A stretch of DNA of 32,369 nt from a virus: positions 1-32,369 of the IMG/VR virus record IMGVR_UViG_3300023301_000058, one strand, 5' to 3'. Positions 2,056-32,369 of the stretch are shown piece after piece (the stretch's first letter is position 1; every line of letters starts with the position of its first letter). The notes beneath the pieces were generated by a model. The model was not told the DNA's origin and searched no databases. It was given only the letters and a program-made list of their open reading frames with translations. A program made the translations under genes and the position numbers.

Positions 2056-2279
2056 TAGTTATCCTCTCCCGCTGCGGGTGTCTCGTCTTCATCTATTGTA
2101 CGCTGTTCCGACTGAGGCAATACTGGTTCAATTTTGTCAGAATTTTTAAAATCTACGTAAGCTTTTGCCCACTCCGTTGCGGAAGCTATTGACTCCCAAG
2201 GGCCGCTTTCATCAATTACATTTGTCCCAAAAAGAATCTGAATATGAAGTTCTGGCTCAATTAATTTATATGTATGCAT
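2055..2279 (-). CDS. small acidic hypothetical protein between fibre genes
   Basis: A 74-residue soluble protein with an aromatic/hydrophobic N-terminal half (a WESIASATEWAKAYVDF helix at about 28-44) and an acidic tail (DEDETPAAGEDN). Its stop codon shares one base with the start of the collagen-like gene at 2055, so the two are translationally coupled. No clear Shine-Dalgarno precedes its ATG, and it follows the propeller gene by 5 bases, so it is probably read through from upstream. The position among fibre genes suggests a structural or fibre-assembly accessory protein, but no family was recognised. Confidence 0.7.
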   Translation of the reverse strand: MHTYKLIEPELHIQILFGTNVIDESGPWESIASATEWAKAYVDFKNSDKIEPVLPQSEQRTIDEDETPAAGEDN

Positions 2280-2284
2280 AATTT

Positions 2285-3211
2285 TTATAGCGAGTACGCT
2301 ATTCTCCCCTCATTCCCTACAGCGATTGCAATTGTGTTGTCTATTTGCAATAGATAATTAATAGTGCCAAGCCCGAAAGTGGAATTTCTTTGAGTCCAAG
2401 ACTCTGGGATAGGAGAAAGAGCGTTAGCTAGTTTTCCAGCTGAGCCTGCCGCTAAGTAAGTCTCTTCAGTAGAGATAATTGCTTTAATACTGGACGCCCC
2501 GAAAGAGCTCTGCGGGTAAATCTGAGTCCAAGAGGCTCCATTAGCAGAATACGCAACTTTTCCAGAGTCTCCAACAGCTACGTACTGCCCACTGTCTACG
2601 CTTACTGTTACACCATAAATAGTGCTATTTATGAATGACGAAGCTCTCTGTGTCCAATTAGTTCCGTTTAAGGAGCTGGCAAGCTTTCCGTCGTACCCCA
2701 CTGCCAAAACTAAGTTTGGGGCTGCAAACACTTCGTTTATAAAAGTTGGGCCAAAAGAAGATGCCCTGAGCACCCAACTGAGTGCGTCTACGGACGTGGC
2801 TAATTTCCCAGATGCACCTACAACTACCCAAATACTTCCTACGGAAGCATAAGTAATTCCTAGAATTGTGCTAGCCCCAAAACCTGAATTCTGCAAGACC
2901 CAAGTCTCACCGTCGACTGAGGTAGCAAGCTTTCCTATGCTGCCACCAGCCATAAAAAAACCATCTCCGTATGCAACAGAGTAGACATTGCTACCAGAAA
3001 ACGGTGAGTTGGCTTGATACCAGTTGACCCCATTGTCATCTGATATTGCTATCTTTCCTGAATTCCCGACTGCTATCAATCTACTTGAGCCGTCATACGC
3101 GATTGAGTTTATGTCTGTAGTACCAAAAGAGGAGTCGTCAACAGCTATCCAGCCAGCAGGCAAAAAGGGAGCGTCTAGAGTTGCATGTATTGCGTGAGTA
3201 GAAATTAGCAT
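2285..3211 (-). CDS. BNR/WD-like beta-propeller tail protein
   Basis: A 308-residue protein made almost entirely of about seven repeats of roughly 40 residues. Each has a core like 'AVG.SGKLATS.DG..W..R.SSFG...I..V'; clear copies begin near residues 45, 90, 130, 170, 215 and 255. The S.D...W core is the Asp-box/BNR pattern of beta-propellers found in sialidase-like and photosynthesis-factor (Ycf48-like) folds. No catalytic sialidase residues are evident, so binding rather than hydrolysis is likely. It starts one base after the stop of the 627-residue collagen-like gene, without an obvious Shine-Dalgarno, so coupling is likely. It is probably a receptor-binding head used with the collagen shafts. 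Confidence 0.8.
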   Translation of the reverse strand: MLISTHAIHATLDAPFLPAGWIAVDDSSFGTTDINSIAYDGSSRLIAVGNSGKIAISDDNGVNWYQANSPFSGSNVYSVAYGDGFFMAGGSIGKLATSVDGETWVLQNSGFGASTILGITYASVGSIWVVVGASGKLATSVDALSWVLRASSFGPTFINEVFAAPNLVLAVGYDGKLASSLNGTNWTQRASSFINSTIYGVTVSVDSGQYVAVGDSGKVAYSANGASWTQIYPQSSFGASSIKAIISTEETYLAAGSAGKLANALSPIPESWTQRNSTFGLGTINYLLQIDNTIAIAVGNEGRIAYSL

Positions 3212-3212
3212 T

Positions 3213-5096
3213 CTAAGATATCAAGTTTCCGCTTAGTAACCAAGTGTTGGAGCTTAGTTTAATCAACGAGGTTATTGAGTATCTAGACTTTGTTGTCCTG
3301 CGGTTTCCCTCTGAAAGAACCTGAACGCCTTCTGCTCCTGCTATACCTACTTGACCTAAGCCCAACTGAGTCAAAACAATCTGAGTTCCTGTTGGGAAAG
3401 TGTAGCCTCCAGAACCGTCTACTGGGACTGTAACTGTAGTAACTACCGAACTGTTTATTTTTACAATTGACGCAGCATCGGAGGCTTGCAAAGTTACAGA
3501 GTTTAAGTATTGAGGTCCAACTAGGTCAAAGTTGGCGGGACCAGTTGGTCCAATAGGCCCCGCGGGACCAGTAACTTGTGGTCCAGTTGGCCCAGTGATT
3601 CCTTGGGCACCAGTTGAGCCTGTAGGCCCTACAGGTCCTTGGGTTGTCGATACAGCACCTGTTGCGCCTGTAGCACCAGTCGGTCCAACAATCTGCCCAG
3701 CGTTAACCCACTCCGAGCCATCCCAGACAAACAAGTCACCACTTGACTCAACAATATAAGCATCGTTTACGGCATTGCCAGACGCGGGCAGTTGGTTTTC
3801 TTGGAATACAGAACCTACAAAAGTGATTCCAGTCCCCTGAGGACCTACTGGTCCAACGGGGCCTGCTTCTCCAGCACCTACAACAAACTTCCAACCAGCG
3901 TAAGTGTTTCCCAGTCCTATTGCTTTATCTACCTCTAGGGACACGGATGTACCAGAGATGTTAATTACGATACCTTCCATAAAGTTAGTTGGGAAGGTTG
4001 AGCTGGCAAGTCTGGCACGAGTACCAATTGCGAATGCTCCAACAGTATTGACAATAAAGTTAATGTCTTCGCCTGTTGTTATTGTCAAGTTGCTAGAGGA
4101 AGTTACACCAGCGAAACTTACGCCAGTAGGTCCAGCTATTCCAGTTGGTCCTGTAACTTCTGGCCCTGTAGGTCCAATTGGCCCAGTAACTGTTGAAGCA
4201 GCCCCAGTGGGTCCTGTAAATCCTTGCGGTCCTGTTGGTCCTGGAATTGTAGAAGCTGAACCAGTGGCACCCATTGCGCCTGTTGCACCACGTAGACCAG
4301 CGTCGCCAGTCGGACCAAAAGGTCCAGTTGCTCCTGTAGAGCCAGTGGCACCAGTAGGTCCTTGAGATGGGCCAGTTGGACCAACCGAACCAGTGGGCCC
4401 AGTAAGTGATGCGCCAGTTGAGCCTGTTGGTCCCAAAGCTCCAGTTGCGCCAACGAACCCTCTAGGACCAGTTACTCCAGTAGGGCCTGTGATTCCTTGA
4501 GGTCCAGTAGGACCCTCTGAGCCCTGCGCCCCAGTAGGTCCTGTAAATCCTAAGGCACCAGTAGCCCCAGTCGGGCCTTCAGGGCCCTCAAGTCCTATCT
4601 GACCTCTTGCGCCTGTAGGCCCAGCCTGTCCTGTAGGTCCAGTGACATCTAAGCCGTTTGAGCCTGTTGGTCCAGTGTTGCCCTGCGGACCCGTTGCACC
4701 AGAAGGTCCTGTAGCCCCAGCAATAGTTGAGGCAGCTCCTTCAGCACCAGTAGGTCCTGTAGCACCCGTAGGGCCAGCTTGCCCAACGTTACTTGAAGCA
4801 GACTCGACCCAGTAAGAATCGTAATAAATATAAATTTGACCAGTCTCAGAATTAAACCAAGCATCGCCTTCGTCAGCACTCTCGGGTGGAGTTGCAGAAG
4901 TTATTGTGAACGCACCAGTTGGGCCAATCGGGCCAGTGACAGAACTATCAGAACCTGTAGCTCCTGCGGGACCAGTTGGACCAACAATTGCAGAGACAAC
5001 TAAGTTCCAAGCAACGCCTGTCCACGCCCATGTAGACGTACCGTCAGTAAATGTGTCGTTTACTTGAGGTGCATCTGGAAAATCAATCGCTGCCAT
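3213..5096 (-). CDS. collagen-like tail fibre protein (627 aa)
   Basis: It begins with the shared cap module ([14 protein letters not shown]..., [10 protein letters not shown]) and alternates Gly-X-Y collagen (GPTGATG and variants) with small globular inserts. Inserts include GDAWFN...[12 protein letters not shown] near residue 75, a beta-rich insert near 325-400, and [26 protein letters not shown] near 440. The last 90 residues are a non-collagen C-terminal domain ([11 protein letters not shown]... to [10 protein letters not shown]), probably the trimerisation or tip domain. The ribosome binding site AGGGG lies 7 bases upstream. The same inserts recur in the 1550-residue neighbour, indicating module exchange between the fibre genes. 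Confidence 0.9.
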
Positions 5097-5106
5097 TATT
5101 TATCCC

Positions 5107-5811
5107 CTAGCCCAAATCTGCTTCGTAGGTGAACTGAATTAAAATTTTGTCGTTAGCACTGAACAAAAAAGGCGTTGTGTGAGTAATGGCAAACCCCTCG
5201 TCATACTGAGCTACTTGTCCATGGATAAAGAGCTCTAACACACTGGCATTATTGTTATTAAAAATTGCAGTTCCAAAGTAAGTAACTCCTGGACCTTCAT
5301 CTCGTACAACTACTTGTCCTACGGGTTGATAGTTCTCAATTACTCCTGCTGCAGGAAGGCTTATTTTGTAGACTCCATCGCCTCGGGTAAATCCCGTCGT
5401 GCCAGCAATAACTCTTATTTCGCCAGTAATAGTTGCGCCAATAAATGTGTACCTGCCAGTAACGCTACCGTTTCCAATTACTGGGTTTGTATTACTTGCA
5501 GTCAAAACAGGTGTATAGGTCTGCCAAGGCTCAATAGCAAACTCACCTGTGGCACCAGTAGCCCCAGTCGGGCCTTGCTCACCAACGGCGGTTGAGTCAT
5601 CTCCAGTTGCGCCTGTCGCGCCTGTAGCACCGTCGGGTCCTGTAGGTCCTACAACATTTGAGTCAGCGCCTATTGGCCCAGTTGGGCCAGTTGGGCCAAC
5701 CGCACTTGTGCGGACAAGACGCCATGCTTGACCGCTCCACTGATAAGTGTTTGTACCGTTTGTGTACTCATCGCTTATTGATGGATTGGATGGAAAATCA
5801 ATCGCTGCCAT
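5107..5811 (-). CDS. collagen-like tail fibre protein (234 aa) with C-terminal beta domain
   Basis: This is the third protein with the shared N-terminal cap (MAAIDFPSNPSISDEY..., TYQWSGQAWRLV). About 60 residues of GPTG collagen follow (roughly 38-95), then a 140-residue C-terminal domain (EPWQTYTPVLTASNTNPVIG onward). That domain resembles the small beta-sandwich heads ending many phage fibres, with 'W.TYTPVL.....NP..GNG...G.Y..IG..I' as its opening pattern. An AGGG ribosome binding site is 7 bases upstream. The 1550-residue fibre ends with a related domain ([10 protein letters not shown] onward), so both may present similar tips. Confidence 0.88.
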   Translation of the reverse strand: MAAIDFPSNPSISDEYTNGTNTYQWSGQAWRLVRTSAVGPTGPTGPIGADSNVVGPTGPDGATGATGATGDDSTAVGEQGPTGATGATGEFAIEPWQTYTPVLTASNTNPVIGNGSVTGRYTFIGATITGEIRVIAGTTGFTRGDGVYKISLPAAGVIENYQPVGQVVVRDEGPGVTYFGTAIFNNNNASVLELFIHGQVAQYDEGFAITHTTPFLFSANDKILIQFTYEADLG

Positions 5812-5818
5812 TATTGCC

Positions 5819-8800
5819 CTACTCGCTATCCGCTATGTAAGAACCACTGAGGTATAGCATACTCGACGTTGTTAGTGTGGCGGGGGTCACGCCCGTAAAG
5901 GCAGTCAACTGTCCGCTAGCTCCGAGATACCACAAATCTAGAATTGCAGAACCTTGACTACCAAAGCCAATTACGTTATACAACGTAGTTCCTGTGCCGT
6001 CTAAGTCTAGTGCTCCAACAAACGAGTTGGACATTGCAGGCTCTGGAAGAACAGGAAGAGTAATCGAGTACTGGGCAGTACCAAAGTTGCTGACTGTGGC
6101 GCAGTCAACGTCTATATTAAAGACAATAGCTTTACCGTTTTTCACGTAGTTTCCAGTTGCAGGAGTGCCAGAGACGCCTAAGTCGTCCCCGCCAAAGACG
6201 GGAGCGTATGCAATTTCTTGAGGAGTACCAGCAGGTCCCGATGCGCCTGTCGCGCCAGTCGGCCCAATCTTGTCAACAACATCGATAACACCAGCAACGC
6301 TTGGGTCAGTAACGTCTTGATAAATAATTTGTACTGGAGCGTCCAAAGGCACATCGTAGACGATAACTGGGTCTGAGCTAGTTGCGTTTCTACCAGAAAC
6401 AGTTGAGTTGTTGAACGTTCCAGGCACAGTTGAAGTGCTGCCAGATGAAAGTCTCAGCGCCAAAGAGTTTGTCAATAGCACAGCAGAAGTATCTATGTAC
6501 AGTCTTTCACCACGCACTGCGACAAGGTTTGGATTATTCCCTACGACACCCTGAGAAGAGTAGAACCCGCCCTCACCACTTGAAGATAGTACGTATACAA
6601 CACCACCCATAGGCCCTTCAGGACCTACGGAACCTTGAGGTCCAGGAACAGTAGAAGCAGGTCCTGTAGCACCTGTAACAGATGGCCCAGTTGGTCCCAC
6701 TTCGCCTTGAGCTCCAGTTGGTCCAACAATCTGACCAACGCTGTTCCAATTAGAACCATCCCAAATGTACAAGTCACCGTTGTCGTCAACGATGTATGCA
6801 TCATTTATGCTGTTGCTGCCAAGAGGCAAGTTGGCTGCAGTAGATACGCTTCCTTGGACATTTATGGAAGTCCCCTGAGGGCCAATAGGTCCTGTAACCG
6901 AAGGTCCCGTTGCACCAGTTCCGCCAGTTGCGCCAGTTGCACCAACGTCTCCAGTAGGACCTACGGGACCAATTAAGGCTCCTGCTTCAATCCAGCCGTT
7001 GTCAGCTGTGTAAATATAAATTGTGTTTTCTTCGTAGATAACGTAGAAATCTCCAATTGCACCAGCACTGGCTCCCGCTCCTGAGTTGAACTCAGCGAAA
7101 GTGTTATAGAATCCTTGTGCTTGTGAGCCCACGCCCTGCGGTCCAGCGGGTCCAGTGACAATAGGACCAGTTGCACCGACTACTCCAGTTGGACCTAGTG
7201 GGCCGTCATCTCCAGTTGCACCTGTCGGCCCTGTTGGCCCTAAGTCTCCCTGAGGACCTTGAGGGCCTGTTGCTCCACCAAATTCTGAAGTACCAACTTC
7301 AACCCAGAAGTTGTCATAGTAGACAAAGACTGCTCCGTTATTTGTGTCGAACCATAGCTCTCCTGGCTCTGGAGATAGTGGAGGACTATCAGACTTAGGT
7401 ACAAATTCTCCTGCGGAACCAGTTGGACCCGTGACCTCGGAGTCCGCACCTGTTGCACCAGTTGGACCAGTTATGCCCTGCGGGCCAGTTACCGTAGAAT
7501 CGGCACCAGTCGGTCCAGTCTCGCCAGTTGGGCCAGTAATACCTTGAGGACCTTCAACTGTCGAGTCAGCACCAGTAGGACCAGTTGGACCCACCTCGCC
7601 CTGAGGGCCTGTAATTCCTCTATAGCCAGTTGGACCAGTTATGCCCTGCGGGCCAGTTACCGTAGAATCGGCACCAGTAGGTCCTACATCTCCAGTTGCA
7701 CCTGTCGGCCCGATTGGGGCAGCAGAAGTTTCGACCCAGAAGCTGTCATAGTAAACATAAATGCGGCCAGTCTCGCTGTTGTACCAAGCATCGCCTGCAT
7801 CAGGAGTAGAAGGAGGTGTCTCGTTTGCAATAGCAAAGGCACCTAGCTCACCTTGAGAACCAGTCTGTCCTGTTGGGCCAGTTTGTCCTGTAGGGCCTAG
7901 CGGACCTGTAGGTCCTTGAATGCTTCCAACGTTGTTCCAAGACTCGGCTACATTGTCCCAAACATAAAGGTCTCCAGCTACTAAGTAGCCGTCTCCAGCA
8001 TTACCTGTGGGTTGAGCTGCTTGGAGGTCTTCTAAGGTTGCATATGACCCAAGAATTGTTACGCCAGTTCCTTGGACACCTGTCGCGCCTGTTGCACCCG
8101 TAGGTCCTAGCGGTCCTTCAACTTCGCTGTCCGCACCTGTTGGACCGCTTGGGCCTGTCTGCCCAGTTGGGCCTGTTAGACCAATCTCGCCTTGAGGTCC
8201 AGTCTCGCCAGTTGGACCAGTAATACCTTGAGGACCTTCAACTTCGCTGTCCGCACCTGTTGCACCAGTTGGACCAGTAATACCTTGAGGACCCGTTACT
8301 GTGGAGTCAGCACCAGTAGGACCTGTAGCGCCTGGAGTTGTAGATACAGCACCCGTTGAGCCTGTTGGTCCAGTGTTACCTAAATTACCTTGAGCACCTG
8401 TTGGACCAGTGTTACCTGTCGGTCCAAGAACTTGACTCTGAGGCCCAGTTGAGCCTGTAGCTCCAGTCGCGCCTATAGCACCTGTAGGGCCTAGTGGACC
8501 TGAAACACCTGTTGGTCCTTGTATTCCTGCGCCCGTTGCACCAGTAGCACCTTGTGGACCAACTTGGGTAGAATCGGCACCTGTAGGTCCAGTGACTGCT
8601 GGACCTGTTGCGCCCGTAGAACCTGTCGAACCCGTAGGTCCCGTCTCACCGCGAATACCTTGAGGGCCAATGTCACCAGTTCTTGCGAACGTGGCAATAA
8701 TATCTTCTAGATTGGAGAAGCTTGTTGCCAGTCCGCTCAGGTAAGAAACAGGAACTCTAAAGTATCCTGTAGCCTCAGTGATTGCGCCTGTGATAGCAAA

Positions 8801-10471
8801 GATTGCAAAATCGTTAGAGTCAACTTTGTTGGTGATTCGAACGTGTCCCTTGATTGGACTTGTAGAGTCGTCAATCGTGCGAAGGAATTGCTGAACATCG
8901 ATTGCACCGTCGGCCTCATCGTCAATGAAGAGGTTGGTTGCACTCTGAAGGTCAACGTTGTTAAATTTAATTTTTCCAGTGCCAGGGTCGGTGTCTGCTA
9001 CCGAAGTGCTAAAGGTGTAGTCAAAGCTTGCTCCACCAAAATTACCAATAGGGCCTGTTGCACCTGAAACACCAGTCGGACCTTGAACACCAGTTGCACC
9101 CTGCGGGCCAGCCACTGTCGAGTCTCCACCCACCGAACCTGTCGCACCTGTTGGGCCTGCTGCTCCTTGAGAACCAGTTGCTCCTGTAGAGCCAGTGGTA
9201 CCTGTTGCACCCAGTGTGCCAGCAGCACCCGTTGCACCTGTAACTGAGGCACCCGTCGCGCCAACTAAACCTTGAGAACCAGTAGAGCCAGTGGCACCTA
9301 TAGCGCCTGTAGCGCCAACTAAACCTTGAGAACCAGTAGAGCCAGTAGAGCCGACTAGTCCATTCGCGCCTGTTGCGCCTGTAGCACCGACTGACCCTGT
9401 TGCGCCTGTAACTGAAGCGCCAGTAGCTCCTGTATTACCTTGGACACCGCTTGCGCCTGTAGCGCCCGTTGCTCCAACTGCTCCTGTTACTCCTTGTATA
9501 CCTGTTGGACCTGAGACACCTGCGGCTCCAGTTGAGCCGATTGACCCAGTGGGACCTGCAGTTCCTGTTGGACCAGATACACCAGCTGGTCCTGTATTAC
9601 CTAAATTACCCTGAAGACCTATTGGCCCAGTTGAACCCGTGGAGCCGATAGGACCTTGAACTGTGGAGGTTGGCCCAGTTGCACCCGTGGCACCGATAGC
9701 ACCAGTAGCACCCTGAATACCCGTAGGTCCTAATGCTCCCGTGGCACCTGTTGCTCCAAGTAAGCCCGTTGCACCCGTGGCACCAGTTCCGCCAGCTGGT
9801 CCTTGAATTGTTCCAACGTTGTCCCACTCGGAATTAACGTTGTCCCACACAAAGAGGTCACCATTTATAAGGTAGCCATCTCCGATGTCGCCTGTTGTAG
9901 GTAGGTCACCCGTGGATGCCAGAGAACCGACAATGGTGACTGAGGTTCCAGCTACACCAGTTGGCCCAGTGTTACCAATGGTACCTGTTGCACCCGTTGC
10001 ACCTGTAGGACCGCCTGAAGGTCCTGTAGGGCCTTGCGGGCCTTGCTCGCCAGCGCCAGTAGGTCCTGTTGCTCCCTGTGGGCCTACAGAGCCTCTAGCA
10101 ACGTCTGAACCTGCGGGGGAAGTTGTTACTGTGTCTATGGTGTCAAGCTTGGTGATATCTACATCGCTCTCATCTCCAATAGGGAGATAGAAGCGGAATT
10201 CTTTTGGACGTGAGCCCTTGATGCGAATCTTCGCAGTCCAGTACCAGCCACGTGGGCTCAGGTCAAGGTCGTCAGTACACGGAAGCTCAACGGAGAACTC
10301 TCCGTTAGAGTCAAGGGTTAAAACAATGGGGTTAGCGACAATTGTTGCATCGTCGACATCTTCAATTCGGCTCGAAGCCGTGAAGACTACGGTACCAGAA
10401 GCGGGTATACCAGTACCTTTAAGGTACTGACCAACAACACTCCTAGTGTTAACGTCAGGTGAAAAACTCAT
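5819..10471 (-). CDS. giant collagen-like tail fibre protein (1550 aa)
   Basis: The N-terminal domain (about 1-130; [21 protein letters not shown], then an FYLPIG segment) differs from the MAAIDFP cap and probably attaches the fibre to the virion. About 1,250 residues of interrupted Gly-X-Y collagen follow, dominated by GPTG, GATG and GSTG. Recurrent globular inserts are of the [14 protein letters not shown] type, the [19 protein letters not shown] type, and one longer insert near 490-600. The C-terminal about 140 residues form a beta domain. A GGAG ribosome binding site lies 8 bases before the ATG. Frequent ATG and STG triplets and internal exact DNA repeats suggest recent expansion by unequal recombination. 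It may be the main long fibre. Confidence 0.9.
7458..7510. repeat. 53-bp exact direct repeat, copy 1
   Basis: This segment inside the 1550-residue collagen-like gene is identical to 7626-7678, 168 bases away. It encodes the same Gly-X-Y run in frame, so recombination between copies would add or delete 56 residues without a frameshift. Confidence 0.85.
7626..7678. repeat. 53-bp exact direct repeat, copy 2
   Basis: Second copy of the exact repeat at 7458-7510, in the same orientation and reading frame within the giant fibre gene. Confidence 0.85.
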
Positions 10472-12830: not shown

Positions 12831-15455
12831 GTGGATAACAAGGACAAGAGTCGTCTCGCAAAAGCGTCGACATATTACCCAAATTTGAATTGGAAGATTC
12901 TTCCATGCCATGGAATTGACAACGGTCGATGTACCTGTAATAAGACCCACGGTGAGCCCAAGGAAGTTGGAAAGCACCCTGTAATAGGTCAGTGGAATGT
13001 TGAATCAACTTCAGACATTGACAAGATTAACAAATGGTGGAGCGCCAACCCTGAGTACAACATCGGCGTACATTGCTCTAAGTCTGGCTTTTTAGTCATT
13101 GACATTGACCCACGCTCTGGCGGTCCAGAATCCTATGTAAAATTTTTAGAAAAGCTCGAAGGCGAGCTACCCCCAACCGTTGAGGCCATCACTGGTATCT
13201 ACAACGGTGACGACAGAACTAGTGGCCGTGGACGCCACATTTATTACAAGTGCGACCCAGAAGAAGACTTAGTCGGAAACCTCAACTCTCTTGAGCTAAA
13301 GGGTGTTGACATTAAGCACAATGGGTATGTTCTTATTTCTCCTTCGAGGCACCACTCTGGTGTTACTTATGAATGGGCTGAGGGCTGTGCGCCTTGGGAG
13401 ATTGATATGGCAGAGGCTCCCGAGGAGCTTCTGAGTATTCTCCGTAAACAGCGTCGTCGCACCTCATACAACTTTGCTGGTGGAGGCGACTGGGACTGGG
13501 TAAATGACGTAGAAGATTTTGACTACGACAAACTCATTAACGACGGAATTGACGAAGGGGAGCGAGCTGTACAGATTTATAAGCTTGCCTGCCACCTAGC
13601 TAATCAGTATGGAACGAATACCAAAAGCGCCAACCTTATTGAGACGTTTATGATTAGGTTTAATCACGATAACGTTCGACCTCCTATGGAGCTAGAGGGC
13701 ACAAACTCTTTGATTATGCACGTTCGTCGTGGCATACAGTTTGTTGCGGATAACCCTAAAGAGCAGAGGCTCGACGCCAACGTAGCTGACTGGCATAAAG
13801 ACCACGCCGTAAAGATTACTGCATCCAATGGAGCAGCTAAATCCCCAACAAAGCTAGTTCCGCTTCTTGGTGTCGTGCCTCCCGAGACTTACTCAACGGA
13901 TGGTCTAGACGAAGACATCTACCGTCCGTACGAGCACGGTGTAGCTGAGCTGATTGAGCAGGGAGCTTCTATCCACGAAGCTACCAGTGTCTCAAACATG
14001 GATGTCCCCAAAGACCCTGACGCTATTGATGTTCAAGACGGAGGTACACCAGGAAAACGTTCTCTGTCAGACACGGGCAACGGACGTCGGCTTGTGGATA
14101 TTTTTGGCAAAGGAGTTCGATACAGTACTGGCCTTGGTTGGTTTGTTTGGAAACAGGGCTATTGGAAGCCTGACACCGAAGACCTAGAAGTCCAAGAACT
14201 TGCAAAACGCCTTGGAGCATTTATTGGGTCTGAATCTGCCAACCACAGCCTAGATAATCAAAATGAAGTAATCAAGTGGGCACATCAATCTCGCAACAAC
14301 TCTCGGTTGCGCGGGGCAGTAGATAGTGCTAAGTCTGACCCTAGGGTTGAAGTACCCATTGACACGTGGGACAATGACTCAAACTTGTTGGGTGTTCTCA
14401 ACGGCGTGATTGACCTAAAGTCAGGTGAGCTTTTGAAAGGTCGTCCAGACCTACACATTACTCGCCGTGCTCCAGTTACATACACTCGTGGCCACCGAAA
14501 CGCTCGCTGGGAGAAGTTCCTAGACGATGCAACTGGTGGAGACAAAGAGTTCCAAGAGTGGCTACAAAAAGCCGCTGGATACACACTTACTGGCTCTAAC
14601 AAGTATGACATCCTGTTTTTGGTCTATGGACCTGGTGGTTCGGGTAAAAATACTTTCGTTGAGGCTTTGGTCAAGTGCCTAGGTACTCAGCAGTACGCTT
14701 GGCCTCTGGACTCGTCAATCTTGGCTCAGGGCGACGGAAAGGCCAACAGCACGGACTTGTACCACTGGGCTCAGTTGCGTGGACGCCGAATGGTCTGGGT
14801 AGACGAGCTCCCCGACTCTGAGCGTATTAAAGAAAACTCTGTAAAGAAGTTGACGGGTTCTTCTGAAATCTCAGCGCGTTCTCCTGGAGAGCAGCCTTTC
14901 ACGTTCCAGTCTCAGGCGAAGCTATGGATTTCTACAAACCACCGTCCTATCATTACGGATGATGCCATGTGGCGTCGTATCAGACCCATCCCGTTTGACA
15001 AGGTGCCTCTTCACCCAGACCCAAACCTTAAGGACTACATCTTTGACCCAGAGGGCGGGCTACCCGCTGTTCTTGCTTGGGCTGTCGAAGGTGCAATGCA
15101 GATTCTAAACTCCAATGACCCTGACGCTCTTGGTTGGTGCGTACGAGTTCGAGAAGCAGCTGATGTCTATCGCAAGAACGAAGACCGTATTGGAATCTTC
15201 CTTGCCGAAGAAACTGAAGAAGCTACAGGAATTGAGACGACAATAAAGACTATGTTTAGCGTCTACCGTGTTTGGTCCGAGGACCGTGGCGAGCGCTCGA
15301 TGACTCAAATTGCATTCACTAGAAAGCTTCTTGAGCGTGGTATGGAGATTGACGGTACTGGTTCTCGCGCAACTATCAAAGGTCTCAAAGTTATTTCAAG
15401 GATGACGCCTACAGATATGAACTGGCAGACAATGACTTCGATAGCTAGGTTCTAA
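12831..15455 (+). CDS. bifunctional primase-polymerase / SF3 helicase (phage P4 family)
   Basis: An 874-residue replication protein. The N-terminal archaeo-eukaryotic primase-like domain (about 15-195) has the catalytic DIDPRSGG at 91-98, RGRHIYYK around 133-140 and GVDIKHNGYVLISPSRHH near 158-175. The C-terminal helicase has a D5-like N-terminal region (about 480-590), Walker A GPGGSGKN at 600-607, Walker B VWVDE ending at 658-659, sensor motif LWISTNHRP near 698-706 and an arginine-finger segment MWRRIRP. Walker A has Asn where Ser/Thr is usual, with Thr next. GTG at 12831 is chosen because GGAGG lies 6 bases before it. It would unwind DNA and make primers at the phage origin. Its stop overlaps that of TerL (CTAA). 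Confidence 0.95.
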   Translation: MDNKDKSRLAKASTYYPNLNWKILPCHGIDNGRCTCNKTHGEPKEVGKHPVIGQWNVESTSDIDKINKWWSANPEYNIGVHCSKSGFLVIDIDPRSGGPESYVKFLEKLEGELPPTVEAITGIYNGDDRTSGRGRHIYYKCDPEEDLVGNLNSLELKGVDIKHNGYVLISPSRHHSGVTYEWAEGCAPWEIDMAEAPEELLSILRKQRRRTSYNFAGGGDWDWVNDVEDFDYDKLINDGIDEGERAVQIYKLACHLANQYGTNTKSANLIETFMIRFNHDNVRPPMELEGTNSLIMHVRRGIQFVADNPKEQRLDANVADWHKDHAVKITASNGAAKSPTKLVPLLGVVPPETYSTDGLDEDIYRPYEHGVAELIEQGASIHEATSVSNMDVPKDPDAIDVQDGGTPGKRSLSDTGNGRRLVDIFGKGVRYSTGLGWFVWKQGYWKPDTEDLEVQELAKRLGAFIGSESANHSLDNQNEVIKWAHQSRNNSRLRGAVDSAKSDPRVEVPIDTWDNDSNLLGVLNGVIDLKSGELLKGRPDLHITRRAPVTYTRGHRNARWEKFLDDATGGDKEFQEWLQKAAGYTLTGSNKYDILFLVYGPGGSGKNTFVEALVKCLGTQQYAWPLDSSILAQGDGKANSTDLYHWAQLRGRRMVWVDELPDSERIKENSVKKLTGSSEISARSPGEQPFTFQSQAKLWISTNHRPIITDDAMWRRIRPIPFDKVPLHPDPNLKDYIFDPEGGLPAVLAWAVEGAMQILNSNDPDALGWCVRVREAADVYRKNEDRIGIFLAEETEEATGIETTIKTMFSVYRVWSEDRGERSMTQIAFTRKLLERGMEIDGTGSRATIKGLKVISRMTPTDMNWQTMTSIARF

Positions 15456-18400
15456 CGGTTAGGGTTGAAAACCTTAGCTCCACTAGAACGAAACGGTGGG
15501 AGCTTTCTTGCAGCAGGAGATTTAGCAGTTAGCTTTCCTCCATGAAATCCTGCAGGTGGCTTAATTAGCAAAGCTGTCATGGCGTGAACCAAAGCGTCTA
15601 CTCGGTCTGGGGAGCTTCGAGTCTGCTCTGGAATCCAGGAAGTCATTTGAGACTCAAGGTCTGGTAGATAATTTACGTGGTGAATTCTAGATTGCTCGTA
15701 AGCCAAAACAATCGGCTCAGCTCTCAAAGCTTTACCATATTTTGAGTGAACTTCTAAAACCTTTACGCTAGGGTCGATAGCGTTGATTGCGTTACGGACC
15801 AAAGCACCACCTTGGTTTACTTCGGCAACAACTGGTGCGCCCCAGCGACGAGCCATCTCAACGACTTTATTAGCCCAGACTTCTGGGGAGCCGTGGATGG
15901 TAGCGTCCTCCAGAACCCAAGCGTGGCGCTTGTACAAGTCTCTGTCTCCAGTGGATGCGCAGACGACGATACCGCAAGCGTCCCTTGGGTTTTCAGCTAC
16001 CGAGGGGTCAACACCTATAACTCTCAGAGGGGTGCTAGGTGGGTAAAGAAGTTCTCGTGCCTTTTCAATCATGTCGATTGTCCAAAGAGCGCCGTCCACA
16101 TCGTCCAGCATTTCTCCGTAGAGCTCCTGCTGCGCGAGAGATGTTCCTTCGTATACTCCAGTAATTGTGTCCAAGTATGCGCCCGACAAGTTTCCAGCGT
16201 TGTCCAAGGTGGAGCCCTTGGTTATAACAACTTTTGAACCTGTGGTTTTTACAAGCTTGGCTTCTTCAATAAGTTTGTAGAGAAGCGGTACTCTTTTGGG
16301 AGTTGTAGTCACAACCATCTGAGGGTTGGCTCCAAGACGGGTACCAACTCGTACGTTGTCAAAAGCAGTCATGCCAGCAGAGTCTGGATTCTGCCGCCAA
16401 GCCGCCACTTCGTCGGACCAACTATGTGTGTTGGATGTTGGGACCATACCTTCGCCCGCAAGATACAAGTGACTTGCAGAGTCAACTGTTATGCATCTCA
16501 TAAATTTTGGAGTGGTTGGGGCAATAGACACAATAGAGTGCTGAGTAGACTGATACTTCCACTCGTACCTAGCTTTAGCTAACTTACGTGGATTACGCAC
16601 GAGTGGGATAGGGGAGTTAACTTGAACGTACCAAGACTGCTTATCTAGCTGTAGTCCGCTTCTACTTCTACGCTTGCGAGCATACACTTTAGGGACTAGC
16701 CCTAAACTTCTAGCAAGTTCTATATACCCGTCAATCAATGCTTTGTTTGTATTAGTAAACCTAAAAGAGCCACCTGGCTCAACGCCCCCGTCGGAATCAG
16801 TAAGCCCCTGTAGCAAAGCAAGACGGTCCTCTGCACTTGCTCTTAAGTAAATCTCGGGAACGTGCTTATTTTTGTAAAGGCCTAGCTCTCTCCACGGGCC
16901 TATTAACTCCGCAGCCCAAACGTGGTCTTTGTTTATATCTCTACTGACTAATCCTGAACGCTCTAATTCCTCTAAAAGCCATGATTTGTCATCTGTGCTG
17001 GTAGCAATGTAGCTAGGCTGGGCGCTTGCGCCGTCTCCTAGAACTAGTCCGAGTACCCAGGGGTTTATTGGCAAGGGTTCGGAGGACGGTAAGTAAGTCA
17101 CTGCTTTTGTTGCAGGAATGTATAAACGTCTTTTGGTATTTGCACGTAGCTGGTTAGTGTCTTTTACTTGGTGATTTGTGGACTCTCTGCCAAATCTCTC
17201 AGTTGCCCACGTTTCGGGGATGACTCCATCAAAGTGGGTGCTGACGTAGCGAAGGTCGGTGTTTGTGAGAACTTTCCACCTGTGCTTGCCGTCTGCGTCA
17301 ATGTGTGTTCCGTTTGAGAAGTTCAATCTGTAGCTGTCTAGGGATAGCTCAGTCTCGTGAACTGCCGTCACGTTGCAGGGCTTACCCAACTCATCGAATA
17401 CAGCGTCTCCTACTTTTAGGTCCCCCATAGTTGACCATCCAGCAGGTGTAGGTATTGGGGTGGCTATGTCCAGCCTAAATTGTGGTCCACGCAAACCATC
17501 AGGTTCGTCGGCAGTGTTTCCAGTAAAAAATACTTTGCCGTCGTGACGTGCCAACCATGTTTTGTTCTTTGCGGTTGGGCACCATACAATTCCTGTGTAG
17601 TTCTCTAAAGTATAAGTACTTCTGCCGTCACCCCACGCTCGGCCTTTGCTGCTCTGCAGGTTTGCTGCCCGAGGGAGAGTTGTGTAGGCGCTCCCGCGAT
17701 AGTGTGCTCCATACAAAGTGACTGTCTCACCTTTATACTTAGGGTGACGAGTGGTGTACGAGTGGCTGTACCCAAGCAAAGTAAGTGCATAACCAAAAGC
17801 ATCTCTTCGTCCTGCACTCTTCTGTTCAAAAGAGCCGCTACTTCCTCTCCTGTGCCCGTCGCCATCCATACATGCGTTAACAAATATCTCTAACTGACTG
17901 ACCGTCAGCGAATTCATAAATTCTATAGTGGGTATTTTTTCTACAGGGTCGATGAAATACTCTAAAATTTTAGCGGAAGAGTCGTTGTCTAGATAGTAAT
18001 TAAGCGCCCCGTTTCCTGAAGAATCTAGCCTGACTATCCAAGACTCTCCTTTTATTTTTTGGCCAGGAGCCTTTGTTTTTTCCCGCTCTGGTCCAAATAA
18101 ATCTGTAAGAGCTTTATGTATAGATGCGCACTTATCTGGGTTCACTCTCATGGATTGGGCTATAGACAGTGAAACTGACCTAGGTCTCTGATGATAGAAA
18201 ACTAGAGCATCTTCTATGTTTTCACCTAATTTATCGCATATATCTATGAGATTAGTCATCCCCCAAGCGCCGTTATTTTTTGTAGACGTAGGTTTGATAA
18301 TTTTAGGTTTGCCGTCTTTTTTATGACACCTTAGTGGAGCAATTCTGTCACTAAGCCATTTTTCCCAGCCAGGCTGGTCTATGAGAACTAGAGACCTAGT

Positions 18401-20527
18401 TTTAGATTTGAAGTCTTTGGACTTAACGGAGCCTTCAGTCATGTACCAAGCGCAGAGCTCCACTAGAGCATCAGAGTGTGTGCTGGTTGTGGGTACATCA
18501 GAGCACGGTGCAGAAGTGATAAGCCTGACTTTTGTGTGCGACTCTCCTTTAATAATGGAGTCTGTAGTGGTCAATTTTATTTCACCATTTCGAAGCTTAA
18601 CTGGCCATTTATGAGTCAAGGTCGAAACCGATGAATGGTGCCTTCCAGAAAATCTTGCTACTGGTTCGTCAACTACATCAAATGTGTGAACACCTTTTAC
18701 TGGATTCCACTCTGAAGAACCAGTGTCAGTGTTTAGAGTGAGTATTTCGTCTCCCTCACTCAAGTTCCCGTGAGTCACCCAGCCCCTATCTTTCGTAAGG
18801 GCTTCAGTGTCAGGGGTCACGCAAAAGAGACTGGCAACGTTACCGTTTGGCCAAGTGAGTCTTCGCTTAGAAGGTTCGTAGTGTGGCTTCTCTGAAGGAG
18901 GAGAAATGTTCATTATACCACTTTCTCCTTCGACCAAAACATCTCGAACGTCGGCCGCGGTACGGGCTACGAGACCGAATCTTCGTTGCCCTGTGGTTGT
19001 GTATTTTGCCTGCTCGCGGACCCATTCGGCACCGAGACGAGTGTTGTGCGTTGGGATGAGAGCTTCGCCAGCAAGGTACATGGAGTTAGGTGAGTCAACG
19101 GTGAGGCATCGGCTTAGTATGGGGGTTATTTCCTCAAAAGAAACAATCATGCGATGAAAATTTCTAGACGCCTGATTGCCAAGAGGAATAAACCGTTTAA
19201 CTTTTCTAGGAAGCTTAAAAAAGTTACGGGTTGGTCTCCACGTGACTAAATAAGCAAGTTTACCAGGAGTACGCGTACCGTCTTTAGCAGTCGCGTGAGT
19301 CTTTTTTTCCACCATAGTAGGCTTCTGCCCAAGCGAGCGAGCAAGGAACATGACGCCGTCGGCAAGATTTTTATTAGTATTCGAAAATTCTATATATCCC
19401 GATTTAGCGTCAATAAATCCATCAGAGTCTAGTAGGCCAGCTAAGAGCTCCCAGCGTTGGTCGGCTGAGGCGTATAAATACTCAGCGGGGATGTGCTTGT
19501 TCCCTAGGACCCCTATTTTTCGTAAGTCAGAGCTAAGACCCCTAGCAGTTACAGAACCTGTATTAGGGTACATTAGTTTTCTATACTTTGCCTCTGTTGG
19601 AGTGTATCCTGCAGCTGAAATTGCATCTACGAGGTGGCCCATGTCGTCACGATGCTGGGTAAACCCGCCAGAGGAGGTGTTCCCGTCACCTTCCCAATAC
19701 CCAAGTAAGTACGGGTCAATAAGTAAGTCAGCAATTGGCGTTGAAACATCCCCTGTTACGGGAATTGAGTGGTTTAAGTCGCCTCTGTCGTTGTAGGTGA
19801 AAGAGTCTACAATTTCCTGAGTGTTGCGTATTTTTGGCCCTACGCCTGTCTCTTGCCTGGCGTAATTTATGGTCGAGTGAAGATTTCTGCCAGCTTGCAT
19901 GTGAGGGGCAAGGCTTGCTCTATTAACTCCAAGCTTGGTTGCAGCTGTCCTAACCGACATTCCAGCGCCCACAAGTTCAAAAGCGCGGTCAATAGTAGAC
20001 ACGGGGATGCGAGACCCTAGTCTCAGATGAGAAACCGTGGACTTCCATTGAGGCCAGTTATCGGGAAGGCCTTTGGACCCGCCTACGTTTCGGTTGTAGG
20101 CTTTTCTGTCTGAGTGTGTCCATGTTACCCATTGGTGCTCTTCACCTGCGTCCAAGGTAGTGCCGTCTGAAAAAGTCAAACGAAACATCCTCTTGGGTAT
20201 ATCAGGGACGTGAGCTTGCAGTACTTTAGTGGGTTTACCATTTTCATCAAAAATGGTGTCGCCCGTTTGAATGTCCCCGATAGTTTTAAAGTATGTAGAC
20301 GTACCATCTGTACAGAGTATTGGAGTGGACATCCTAAGAAATTTCCCGAATCCGCGGCCTGCCATAATTAACCATACGTTCCAGTCGTCACCTTCGGGTG
20401 CTAACTGCTCGGGGCGAGCCCAAACGTTCCAGTCCCACATGAGCTGGTCCATGTCCATATCAGCAAGGACAGCCTCTTGCTCCTCTATGGGCAAAAGCGC
20501 AATAAACTCCATTAAGCTCTTGCCCAT
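15452..20527 (-). CDS. terL: terminase large subunit precursor with three inteins
   Basis: The 1691-residue precursor would splice to a 473-residue terminase built from extein residues 1-62, 496-568, 1005-1017 and 1367-1691. The spliced enzyme has Walker A GRGFGKT (57-62 plus T496), a GLRGPQ segment before the Walker B region SWSDE (acidic pair 1372-1373), coupling motif VTTTPKR near 1406, and nuclease acidic residues D1507 (VIGVDPS), E1569 (VVAEVNQ) and D1644 (PDRVDAL). It is the packaging motor that cuts and translocates DNA into proheads. Every splice junction is followed by Thr. The 158-codon gene upstream ends 7 bases before it. Splicing is inferred from motifs and from the perfect restoration of terminase motifs across each junction. 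Confidence 0.96.
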   Translation of the reverse strand: MGKSLMEFIALLPIEEQEAVLADMDMDQLMWDWNVWARPEQLAPEGDDWNVWLIMAGRGFGKFLRMSTPILCTDGTSTYFKTIGDIQTGDTIFDENGKPTKVLQAHVPDIPKRMFRLTFSDGTTLDAGEEHQWVTWTHSDRKAYNRNVGGSKGLPDNWPQWKSTVSHLRLGSRIPVSTIDRAFELVGAGMSVRTAATKLGVNRASLAPHMQAGRNLHSTINYARQETGVGPKIRNTQEIVDSFTYNDRGDLNHSIPVTGDVSTPIADLLIDPYLLGYWEGDGNTSSGGFTQHRDDMGHLVDAISAAGYTPTEAKYRKLMYPNTGSVTARGLSSDLRKIGVLGNKHIPAEYLYASADQRWELLAGLLDSDGFIDAKSGYIEFSNTNKNLADGVMFLARSLGQKPTMVEKKTHATAKDGTRTPGKLAYLVTWRPTRNFFKLPRKVKRFIPLGNQASRNFHRMIVSFEEITPILSRCLTVDSPNSMYLAGEALIPTHNTRLGAEWVREQAKYTTTGQRRFGLVARTAADVRDVLVEGESGIMNISPPSEKPHYEPSKRRLTWPNGNVASLFCVTPDTEALTKDRGWVTHGNLSEGDEILTLNTDTGSSEWNPVKGVHTFDVVDEPVARFSGRHHSSVSTLTHKWPVKLRNGEIKLTTTDSIIKGESHTKVRLITSAPCSDVPTTSTHSDALVELCAWYMTEGSVKSKDFKSKTRSLVLIDQPGWEKWLSDRIAPLRCHKKDGKPKIIKPTSTKNNGAWGMTNLIDICDKLGENIEDALVFYHQRPRSVSLSIAQSMRVNPDKCASIHKALTDLFGPEREKTKAPGQKIKGESWIVRLDSSGNGALNYYLDNDSSAKILEYFIDPVEKIPTIEFMNSLTVSQLEIFVNACMDGDGHRRGSSGSFEQKSAGRRDAFGYALTLLGYSHSYTTRHPKYKGETVTLYGAHYRGSAYTTLPRAANLQSSKGRAWGDGRSTYTLENYTGIVWCPTAKNKTWLARHDGKVFFTGNTADEPDGLRGPQFRLDIATPIPTPAGWSTMGDLKVGDAVFDELGKPCNVTAVHETELSLDSYRLNFSNGTHIDADGKHRWKVLTNTDLRYVSTHFDGVIPETWATERFGRESTNHQVKDTNQLRANTKRRLYIPATKAVTYLPSSEPLPINPWVLGLVLGDGASAQPSYIATSTDDKSWLLEELERSGLVSRDINKDHVWAAELIGPWRELGLYKNKHVPEIYLRASAEDRLALLQGLTDSDGGVEPGGSFRFTNTNKALIDGYIELARSLGLVPKVYARKRRSRSGLQLDKQSWYVQVNSPIPLVRNPRKLAKARYEWKYQSTQHSIVSIAPTTPKFMRCITVDSASHLYLAGEGMVPTSNTHSWSDEVAAWRQNPDSAGMTAFDNVRVGTRLGANPQMVVTTTPKRVPLLYKLIEEAKLVKTTGSKVVITKGSTLDNAGNLSGAYLDTITGVYEGTSLAQQELYGEMLDDVDGALWTIDMIEKARELLYPPSTPLRVIGVDPSVAENPRDACGIVVCASTGDRDLYKRHAWVLEDATIHGSPEVWANKVVEMARRWGAPVVAEVNQGGALVRNAINAIDPSVKVLEVHSKYGKALRAEPIVLAYEQSRIHHVNYLPDLESQMTSWIPEQTRSSPDRVDALVHAMTALLIKPPAGFHGGKLTAKSPAARKLPPFRSSGAKVFNPNR
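16430..17476 (-). mobile_element. intein 3 in TerL, class 3 type, LAGLIDADG endonuclease
   Basis: Residues 1018-1366 (349 aa), inserted between GPQF (to 1017) and THSWSDE (from 1367), next to Walker B. The first residue is Arg, not a nucleophile. The class 3 triplet is present: W1084 (block B, KHRW), C1345 (block F, RCITVDSA) and T1364 (block G, VPTSN). The penultimate residue is Ser instead of His, with terminal N1366. Endonuclease motifs are VLGLVLGDG (about 1158-1166) and LLQGLTDSDG (1238-1247). Its sequence resembles intein 1 in blocks A and F (for example FDE.GKP and LYLAGE). Confidence 0.88.
17516..18823 (-). mobile_element. intein 2 in TerL, class 1 type, LAGLIDADG endonuclease
   Basis: Residues 569-1004 (436 aa), from C569 (CVTPDTEALT) to N1004 (VFFTGN), followed by T1005. 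It has an N-terminal Cys, block B STLTHKW with H639, and block F/G typical of class 1 inteins (YTGIVWCP..., then GKVFFTGN). The penultimate residue is Gly rather than His, a known variation. Two degenerate dodecapeptide motifs (about 687-699, LVELCAWYMTEG, and 879-891, LEIFVNACMDGDG) mark a LAGLIDADG homing endonuclease, possibly weakened. Removal joins VASLF to TADEPDGLRGPQ, a normal terminase segment. Confidence 0.9.
19043..20341 (-). mobile_element. intein 1 in TerL, class 3 type, LAGLIDADG endonuclease
   Basis: Residues 63-495 (433 aa), inserted within Walker A between K62 and T496. Residue 1 is Phe, so there is no Cys/Ser/Ala nucleophile. The block A pattern (STPILCTDGT, then TIGDIQTGDTIFDENGKPT) is intact. 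The class 3 triplet is present: W133 in block B (EEHQW), C474 in block F (RCLTVDSP) and T493 in block G (IPTHN). N495 is the terminal Asn. Endonuclease motifs LLGYWEGDG (about 274-282) and LLAGLLDSDG (361-370) are seen, with an HTH-like insert (about 180-215). The boundaries restore GRGFGKTR exactly. Confidence 0.9.
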
Positions 20528-21298: not shown

Positions 21299-21988
21299 CT
21301 AAGAAGTCTCGGAAGTGTCAACTTCTGTAATGTCCTTCGAAAAGGACACAAAAACGTGCCGAACAGTACTCGCGTACCACTCTTTACCTTTGTTAGTTGT
21401 TGGAACTTCCTCTTTGTTCAGCTTCTGAGCTATAACGTTAAAAGAGAGACCAGCGTTTCGTTCCTTCCAAATCCGCTCTTTGAGCTCAATATCTAATACA
21501 GACCTGGGCCCAATGTTAACTCCCCAGACTTTGCCGTTATCACGTCGGTCTTGATGGACGTCCTTCTGGCGTAGAGAAATCATTCCTCTTTCCATCTCGG
21601 CCATGGCAGACATTATTGTGACGACGAACCTTCCTTGGTATGTGGCAGTGTCTAGCCCAAGGTCGAGCAGGGCTAATCGCCATTCGTACTTATGAGAACG
21701 GTCAACAATGCTGAGGAAGTCTCGAGTGGAACGAGCTAGTCGGTCCAGCCTCGTAACATACATAGCTTGAGCAAGCCCAGAGTCCAGTTCTTCCAGTGCC
21801 TTCTTCAGCACTGGTCTACCTTGAATACTCTTCCCTGAGCGCCCCTCTTCTCTAAGAACCACAGGCGTATAGCCAGCCAACTCGGCAGCAGCGATTAGCT
21901 GCTTCTCCTGAGCCCCGAGGCTCATACCGTCTGCTGCTTGCATTTGAGTTGATACTCGTGCGTAGCAGTACGCAATACCCTCTGGCAT
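21299..21988 (-). CDS. serine recombinase (resolvase/invertase family)
   Basis: A 229-residue protein with the catalytic Ser in YARVST (S13) and the resolvase signature TRLDRLARS (80-87, with R83 and R86 as the expected active-site arginines), then the long E-helix region (VVTIMSAMAEMERGMISLRQ). The C-terminal 70 residues (SVLDIELKERIWKERNAGLS onward) contain an HTH (FNVIAQKLNKEEVPTT). It is too short for a large serine integrase and resembles resolvases or invertases. It could resolve genome dimers, invert a segment or integrate; no crossover site was recognised. The start overlaps the stop of the 67-residue membrane-protein gene (TAATG). Confidence 0.93.
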   Translation of the reverse strand: MPEGIAYCYARVSTQMQAADGMSLGAQEKQLIAAAELAGYTPVVLREEGRSGKSIQGRPVLKKALEELDSGLAQAMYVTRLDRLARSTRDFLSIVDRSHKYEWRLALLDLGLDTATYQGRFVVTIMSAMAEMERGMISLRQKDVHQDRRDNGKVWGVNIGPRSVLDIELKERIWKERNAGLSFNVIAQKLNKEEVPTTNKGKEWYASTVRHVFVSFSKDITEVDTSETS

Positions 21989-30818: not shown

Positions 30819-31589
30819 TTACTTAATCACGTTATCGTCGCCCGTAATAGTGCTGCCAGTGGCATTACAGCTGACAACATTATTATTGCCCGTAATGGTG
30901 TTAGCACTGCCAGTACACTCAGCCCCGCCAACTCCATCTTCACCGTCAGCTCCATCGATTCCGTTAGTGCCGTCAGCTCCGTCAGTGCCGTTAGTTCCAG
31001 CAGCTCCGTCGATTCCGTCAGTGCCATCGGTGCCATTAGTGCCGTTAATTCCGTTAAGACCCTTAGTTCCGCCTTTACCGTTAGCTCCGTCAGCTCCGTC
31101 AGTGCCATCGATTCCGTCAGTGCCGTTAGTTCCGTCGGCTCCATTAGTACCACTGGTTCCAGCAGTTCCATTATTCCCGATAGCTCCACTGGTTCCGTCA
31201 GTTCCGTTCGTTCCGTTAGTTCCAGCAGCTCCGTTACTTCCGCTAGACCCTCTAGAGCCATTAGAGCCGTTCGCTCCGTCAGCACCGTCAGCACCGTCAA
31301 CGCCATCGGTGCCGTTGATTCCTGCAAGTCCTATTGCTCCGATAGCGCCTTCTTCGCCGTTAGAACCTTTAGCACCGATTGCGCCGTTGGTTCCGTTCGT
31401 TCCGTCAATTCCATCAACGCCATTAGTTCCGTCAACGCCAGCTTTGCCGTCAACTCCATTTATCACAATGGGGGTAACCATTGGAACTGCTTGAGCCTGA
31501 CTCATCGCCATAAAAAGTAAGGCTATTGAGATAGTTACCAAACTTGCTGATTTGATTACTCTCTCAATTACCGATAATGCCTTAGTAAT
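30819..31589 (-). CDS. secreted collagen-like Gly-X-Y protein, probable ATT start
   Basis: A protein of 256 residues if started at ATT 31589. The signal peptide reads (M)TKALSVIERVIKSASLVTIS, then IALLFMAMSQAQA with likely cleavage after AQA, about residue 33. About 180 residues of GTN/GTD/GAD/GID triplets follow, then a C-terminal Cys-containing segment (GGAECTGSANTITGNNNVVS, then CNATGSTITGDDNVIK). GGGAGG lies 6 bases before the ATT. The triplets are Asn/Asp-rich, unlike the Pro-rich GPTG fibres, so the origin differs. Export from the host cell is implied. The gene overlaps the upstream stop by 8 bases. Confidence 0.75.
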   Translation of the reverse strand: MTKALSVIERVIKSASLVTISIALLFMAMSQAQAVPMVTPIVINGVDGKAGVDGTNGVDGIDGTNGTNGAIGAKGSNGEEGAIGAIGLAGINGTDGVDGADGADGANGSNGSRGSSGSNGAAGTNGTNGTDGTSGAIGNNGTAGTSGTNGADGTNGTDGIDGTDGADGANGKGGTKGLNGINGTNGTDGTDGIDGAAGTNGTDGADGTNGIDGADGEDGVGGAECTGSANTITGNNNVVSCNATGSTITGDDNVIK

Positions 31590-31995
31590 CTTGTGCCTCC
31601 CTGATTGTTGCCTCTAGCTCGTCTGCCGTGTAAATTTCCCAATTTTCGCTCAAATAAAGCGCCCTAACTTCTTCTTCGATAATGGGTTTGTTGGCTTCCT
31701 TGGTTTGGAATACTTTGATGATGCGCTCACGCTCTAATTGAATTCCATCTTTCAATCCCTCGCTGTAGCCATAAGAACACCCGTCCGAGTATGCATTATT
31801 CTCTTTATGGGTTTCGTATTGGTAGTTTTCCGACTGGGACTCACTTTGAATGTCTGACAACGTAGAGGCTAGTCCTGGGTCTTGAAGTGCCGATGCCTCT
31901 AGTGACTTGCGGGCGAGGCGGTGGGCGAAGCTGTCACCCGAGGCTTTTGACCATGCAAGACGAAGATTGTGCTCGCGAGGATTGGTTTCAGTCAT
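31582..31995 (-). CDS. hypothetical protein
   Basis: A 137-residue protein with a charged N-terminal helix (EHNLRLAWSKASGDSFAHRL), a Ser/Gln/Tyr-rich middle and a helical segment YGYSEGLKDGIQLERERIIK of a type common in small phage proteins. AAGGG precedes the ATG by 7 bases, and its start overlaps the upstream stop (ATGA). Its end (EATIREAQDY) resembles the end of the partial gene at the window edge (LEAQDD), pointing to a duplicated gene junction. Function unknown. Confidence 0.7.
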   Translation of the reverse strand: MTETNPREHNLRLAWSKASGDSFAHRLARKSLEASALQDPGLASTLSDIQSESQSENYQYETHKENNAYSDGCSYGYSEGLKDGIQLERERIIKVFQTKEANKPIIEEEVRALYLSENWEIYTADELEATIREAQDY

Positions 31996-32249
31996 CGGTT
32001 TACCCTTCCTAGTCTTCGGATTTCATCCTTATACGCGTCAGTGGAACGCCAAAGCTCTTCGTCTGCTTTTTCCCATTCACGATATTCTTCGGTTCGTTCA
32101 GCTATAGCGTCTGCCTCATCCATGGCATTCCGAGCGTTGTCTGCTTGTGCCTTCAATTCAGTGAATACTTCAGTTTTAGCCATCATGTCTTTGAACTCTG
32201 GGGTTGTTTTGTACTTTTCCCAAAGCTCATCTAGTCCTTGCTCAGTCAT
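31992..32249 (-). CDS. small coiled-coil hypothetical protein
   Basis: An 85-residue, highly charged helical protein (for example KAQADNARNAMDEADAIAER, then TEEYREWEKADEEL), probably a coiled coil. GAGG precedes the ATG, and it overlaps its upstream neighbour by 8 bases and its downstream neighbour by 4 (ATGA). Function unknown. Confidence 0.7.
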   Translation of the reverse strand: MTEQGLDELWEKYKTTPEFKDMMAKTEVFTELKAQADNARNAMDEADAIAERTEEYREWEKADEELWRSTDAYKDEIRRLGRVNR

Positions 32250-32369
32250 CTTGTGCCTCTAACCATGCTTTGTATTGGGGTGTTGCACGCAAGGCAAGAA
32301 AAGCAGTAATCCCACATTGATAGTCTTTTCTCATGTCTTGACGCATCGTTTTGTACTCAAGTGTGCCTA
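32242..32369 (-). CDS. hypothetical protein, 5' part outside window
   Basis: The minus strand is open from the window edge and ends with YKTMRQDMRKDYQCGITAFL, then ALRATPQYKAWLEAQDD and a stop at 32242-32244. The start lies beyond the window. It overlaps the next gene by 8 bases and supplies its ribosome binding site. No family was recognised. Confidence 0.65.
   Translation of the reverse strand, partial: GTLEYKTMRQDMRKDYQCGITAFLALRATPQYKAWLEAQDD

Follow-up and report, generated by a model that had tools for sequence, protein, structure and literature searches.

Results

A collagen-like reading frame opens at an ATT codon

The window, that is, the whole stretch of DNA analysed here, is a single 32,369-base contig of IMG/VR. 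The features at the locus are listed below, with the basis of each call.

32242-32259, minus strand: sister junction GAGGCACAAGATGACTGA; its ATG lies at 32249 and its overlap is likewise 8 nt (sequence)
31582-31995, minus strand: upstream gene, 137 aa, with C-terminus ...ELEATIREAQDY before the stop (ORF, homology)
31596-31601, minus strand: Shine-Dalgarno GGGAGG, in the terminal codons of the upstream gene and 6 nt 5' of the ATT
31587-31589, minus strand: ATT in start-codon position (sequence; ATG in homologous junctions)
30819-31589, minus strand: secreted collagen-like gene read from the ATT, 256 codons plus stop (open frame; Pfam)
31488-31589, minus strand: predicted 34-residue signal peptide (rule-based)
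31521-31572, minus strand: hairpin in the signal-peptide codons, -19.8 kcal/mol, z -5.4 against shuffles
31539-31541, minus strand: rival start codon TTG, anti-SD duplex -2.2 at ~16 nt, inside the hairpin
30921-31457, minus strand: Gly-X-Y collagen-like region (sequence, Pfam)
30819-30920, minus strand: C-terminal cap AECTGSANTITGNNNVVSCNATGSTITGDDNVIK, with two cysteines (sequence)

Read 5' to 3' on the minus strand, GGGAGG (31601-31596) is followed by the spacer CACAAG (31595-31590), by ATT (31589-31587) and then by ACT AAG. A sequence-only reading had placed GGGAGG ahead of ATT ACT AAG, and the 256-codon frame does open there. This frame overlaps the 137-aa gene by 8 nt and is open from 31613, with ATG, GTG and TTG absent in frame until TTG 31541; the next in-frame ATGs are at 31511 and 31505. 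No usable canonical start thus lies in frame upstream of the AUU.

The upstream protein ends in EAQDY at 31582. The sister junction sits 660 bases upstream of the ATT, behind an ORF ending in EAQDD, and carries ATG at the equivalent position. The sequence-only reading had matched the two junctions and had noted that both upstream proteins end in EAQD; both observations hold, each protein having one further residue. A frameshift joining the upstream ORF to the collagen-like frame was rejected, as no slippery heptamer was seen by eye near CAAGATTACTAAGG and a signal peptide in mid-protein would make no sense.

Elsewhere on the minus strand, the terminase large subunit (15452-20527) is 1691 aa long. 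It matches the 469-aa TerL of Actinomycetia phage DSL-LC01 in pieces (63-72% identity), between which lie about three long insertions carrying LAGLIDADG/Hom_end matches; this terminase appears to contain three inteins. At 21299-21988 lies a gene for a serine recombinase (PHROG 95 and 125), of the integrase/invertase type. Several long collagen-like proteins of the GPTGATG type, one of 1550 aa with a Pfam Collagen match, occupy 1405-10471 and are probably tail fibres.

The ATT reading encodes a predicted secreted protein

The protein read from the ATT begins ITKALSVIERVIKSASLVTISIALLFMAMSQAQA followed by VPMVTPIVINGVDG and matches Pfam Collagen (PF01391) with E=1.7e-27 and 95.4 bits, against a gathering cut-off of 27.2. 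Its predicted signal peptide was called by rule (positive n-region, hydrophobic core and A-X-A motif) rather than by SignalP. The n-region has a net charge of +2, the h-region is LVTISIALLFM, with an 11-residue Kyte-Doolittle (KD) mean of up to 2.7 in the core, and the cleavage motif is AQA, so that the rule for Sec secretion bears out the proposal that a start at the ATT yields a signal peptide ending in AQA. Among frames lying behind a Shine-Dalgarno at non-start codons, ~0.8% pass the same rule, in a background set of 814 kb made up of the window and loci of related viruses.

The accompanying statement, that the signal peptide is lost with any later start, went too far. Initiation at TTG 31541 would retain the h- and c-regions (MVTISIALLFMAMSQAQA); what it drops is the charged n-region, leaving no Lys or Arg. 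A start at this TTG, with an 18-residue signal peptide and the ATT unused, was accordingly weighed as an alternative. The codon is canonical, the hydrophobic core and AQA site would be kept, and its position 41 nt past the upstream stop makes re-initiation conceivable. Against this, its anti-SD duplex reaches just -2.2 at a distance of ~16 nt, the n-region would be uncharged, the strong Shine-Dalgarno of the ATT would be purposeless, and the TTG is buried in a stable hairpin. The hairpin (18-nt arms, 83% complementary, 8-nt loop) starts 17 nt past the A of the ATT and spans the TTG. We regard initiation at the TTG as distinctly improbable. The hairpin was also considered as a conserved element and rejected, since no similar structure occurs in the two related viruses described below (L196 and L197).

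For the collagen-like gene itself, the searches returned no ortholog in which conservation of the codon or of the N-terminus could be followed. Exact-peptide scans of viral contigs returned no relatives of the whole 137-aa, 205-aa or collagen-like proteins, and the phage collection searched gave no match. Matches in bacterial genomes were to the collagen repeats, and the C-terminal cap (30819-30920) had no relative, its query matching only low-complexity repeats.

Two viruses with the upstream family, L196 and L197, also encode a short protein with a signal peptide and a collagen-like region, MYKITRLISSLATVGLLTLIAVGLNSGSFAA..., and their two genes are 83% identical. The architecture of signal peptide plus short collagen-like repeat is common to these proteins and that of the window, whereas the N- and C-termini differ. 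Because the N-terminus is not shared, they provide no direct test of the window's start. In L196 the gene begins CTG-ATG-TAT behind GGAGG. In L197 the corresponding sequence is TTG-ATT-TAT; here the ATG is lost, and the TTG, which by eye shares bases with the stop codon of a short leader (MLEELTPQRSRLLS), probably takes over as start.

Homologous junctions carry ATG at the position of the ATT

The C-terminal part of the 137-aa protein is homologous to an IMG/VR family ending in IREAQDD or IREGQDD. Scanning of IMG/VR, covering records other than those close or near-identical to the window, found GAGGCACAAGATNACTRA in 31 stretches and the sister form GAGGGACAAGATNACTRA in 23. Several of these stretches hold relatives of the C-terminus of the upstream protein, and their alignment found 30 loci. 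At most of these the ATG of the following gene overlaps the stop as GATGA; some instead have a GAATGA tail, in which the ATG is displaced by one base.

These junctions resemble that of the window in the homologous upstream C-terminus, the Shine-Dalgarno within the tail, its spacing and the 8-nt overlap. They differ in the start codon, which is ATG in all those found and ATT in the window only; the non-canonical codon is thus not conserved among the junction relatives. In distinct junctions of this form, the variable base is G in 49 of 52 and A in the other three, which lie in unrelated contexts; none has T. The comparison with related phages suggested in the sequence-only reading therefore places ATG at the position of the ATT. 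Because G is found in 49 of the 52 junctions and T in none, the T of the window is a derived G>T change, which replaces ATG by ATT and, at the end of the upstream protein, Asp by Tyr.

The exact 16-mer with T, GAGGCACAAGATTACT, occurs in 16 IMG/VR contigs, in each case in mid-gene and with unrelated downstream frames. As every match lies inside an unrelated gene, these contigs were rejected as parallel ATT junctions. Two GATAAC matches that precede a long frame (L009 and L020) run, judged by eye, into an apparent ribonucleotide reductase and offer no start.

The EAQDD or EGQDD ends of several unrelated small proteins (loci L034-L063 and L165-L177) provide a Shine-Dalgarno and an overlapping ATG. 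Such a tail resembles a junction module that these viruses share and may have exchanged.

The same comparison bears on whether the T is genuine. An error of sequencing or assembly, or a rare, transient and defective variant caught in the contig, could account for it, the virus truly having ATG. Homologous junctions have G, the T alters a conserved upstream Asp to Tyr, single-base errors occur in metagenome contigs, and the T is seen in one contig with no relative sharing it among records more distant than the near-identical ones. However, the contig is otherwise free of signs of error, its large ORFs being intact, so that it does not appear error-rich; moreover, an error would have had to strike one of ~100 start-codon bases in 32 kb. 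We consider an error or defective variant unlikely, though it carries more weight than the other alternatives.

A strong Shine-Dalgarno precedes the ATT

The anti-SD duplex 5' of the ATT has an energy of -10.9 kcal/mol, with 6 nt between GGAGG and the codon. Only 0.3% of the ATT codons in the window (n=1019) have an equally strong upstream duplex. Among the scored genes, only a 97-aa gene comes near it (-10.7); the plus-strand GTG of an 874-aa gene has a stronger duplex (-12.7).

A strong Shine-Dalgarno might be taken as compensation for a weak codon. This was ruled out: relatives with ATG and REGQDD tails have duplexes of -11.4, and since some ATG relatives are equally strong, the Shine-Dalgarno did not evolve to rescue the ATT. 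After GGAGG-like sites in the 814-kb set, ATT occurs 81 times, with no excess, versus 259 times for ATG, which is in excess. ATT starts are therefore no habit of these viruses, and the ATT of the window stands on its own evidence.

That evidence agrees with the original suggestion that the ATT is exactly in the place of a start codon: homologous junctions have ATG there, a strong Shine-Dalgarno lies at 6 nt, the n-region it opens has a charge of +2, and no canonical start with a ribosome-binding site competes. The ATT at 31589-31587 is well supported as the place of initiation and, in our judgement, is very probably so.

Discussion

A model for initiation at the AUU

Junction, homology, Shine-Dalgarno, open frame, signal-peptide features and direction of change, all visible at the level of sequence, are consistent with the following model. 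The ancestor would have had a junction common in phages, where GAGGCACAAGATGACTRA, the 3' end of one small gene (EAQDD and stop), also supplies the Shine-Dalgarno and an overlapping ATG to the gene that follows. A single G>T change would then have replaced this ATG by ATT and made Tyr, in place of Asp, the final residue of the upstream protein. Ribosomes translating or binding the upstream 3' end would be positioned by GGGAGG with AUU in the P site, and initiation with fMet at AUU would be coupled to the upstream gene, probably with a yield below that of AUG. We infer that the T is genuine, that ribosomes decode AUU and that the yield is lower. Overall, we think it reasonably probable that this is a real initiation site at which AUU, if the base is correct, is decoded at reduced efficiency.

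Two other outcomes of the same change were considered. The start may have been lost, leaving a recent pseudogene that is not usefully expressed. Conversion of an ATG into ATT would be typical of the first step in such a loss, but the repetitive 256-codon frame is intact and an AUU preceded by a strong Shine-Dalgarno generally yields some protein (PMC13009471); we consider loss of the gene highly improbable. Alternatively, the ATT may be fixed in the virus, where it would keep the dose of the collagen-like protein IF3-sensitive and low compared with that of the coupled upstream gene, the hairpin denying ribosomes access to the TTG. Such a regulatory role is a speculative extension that we consider improbable. 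Decoding of AUU at reduced efficiency remains the reading we favour.

Genes started at AUU are few, and they are missed by gene callers restricted to ATG, GTG and TTG. At this locus such a caller would trim the n-region of the signal peptide or choose the wrong start. The homologous junctions also illustrate that the final codons of a small phage gene can persist as the ribosome-binding site of the next one.

Comparison with known AUU starts

An AUU start within a phage gene has a precedent in phage T4, where gene 26* starts at an internal AUU of a baseplate gene; in the window, the AUU instead lies in a stop-start overlap. The start codons of E. coli infC (ATT) and of Streptomyces infC (ATC) and sigR (GTC), which are repressed by IF3 (PMC5472188), likewise fall outside ATG, GTG and TTG. 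Whereas those are regulatory and conserved across relatives, the ATT of the window is one derived change in a single contig with no sign of conservation. In E. coli, re-initiation is less inhibited by overproduction of IF3 when a Shine-Dalgarno is present (PMC2268962). A parallel in ribosome binding is offered by S. aureus cvfC1 (AUU) and ccpN (AUA), which also have a strong extended Shine-Dalgarno; the AUU of cvfC1 gives ~10% of the yield of AUG (PMC13009471). The S. aureus starts are conserved and measured, whereas the strength of the window's Shine-Dalgarno is found in ATG relatives too and so is no compensation. If the base is correct, the ATT of the window is most likely one more example of the known but rare genes started at ATT, and a phage case set against its ATG relatives would demonstrate how a single base can weaken the start codon of a gene that is nevertheless retained.
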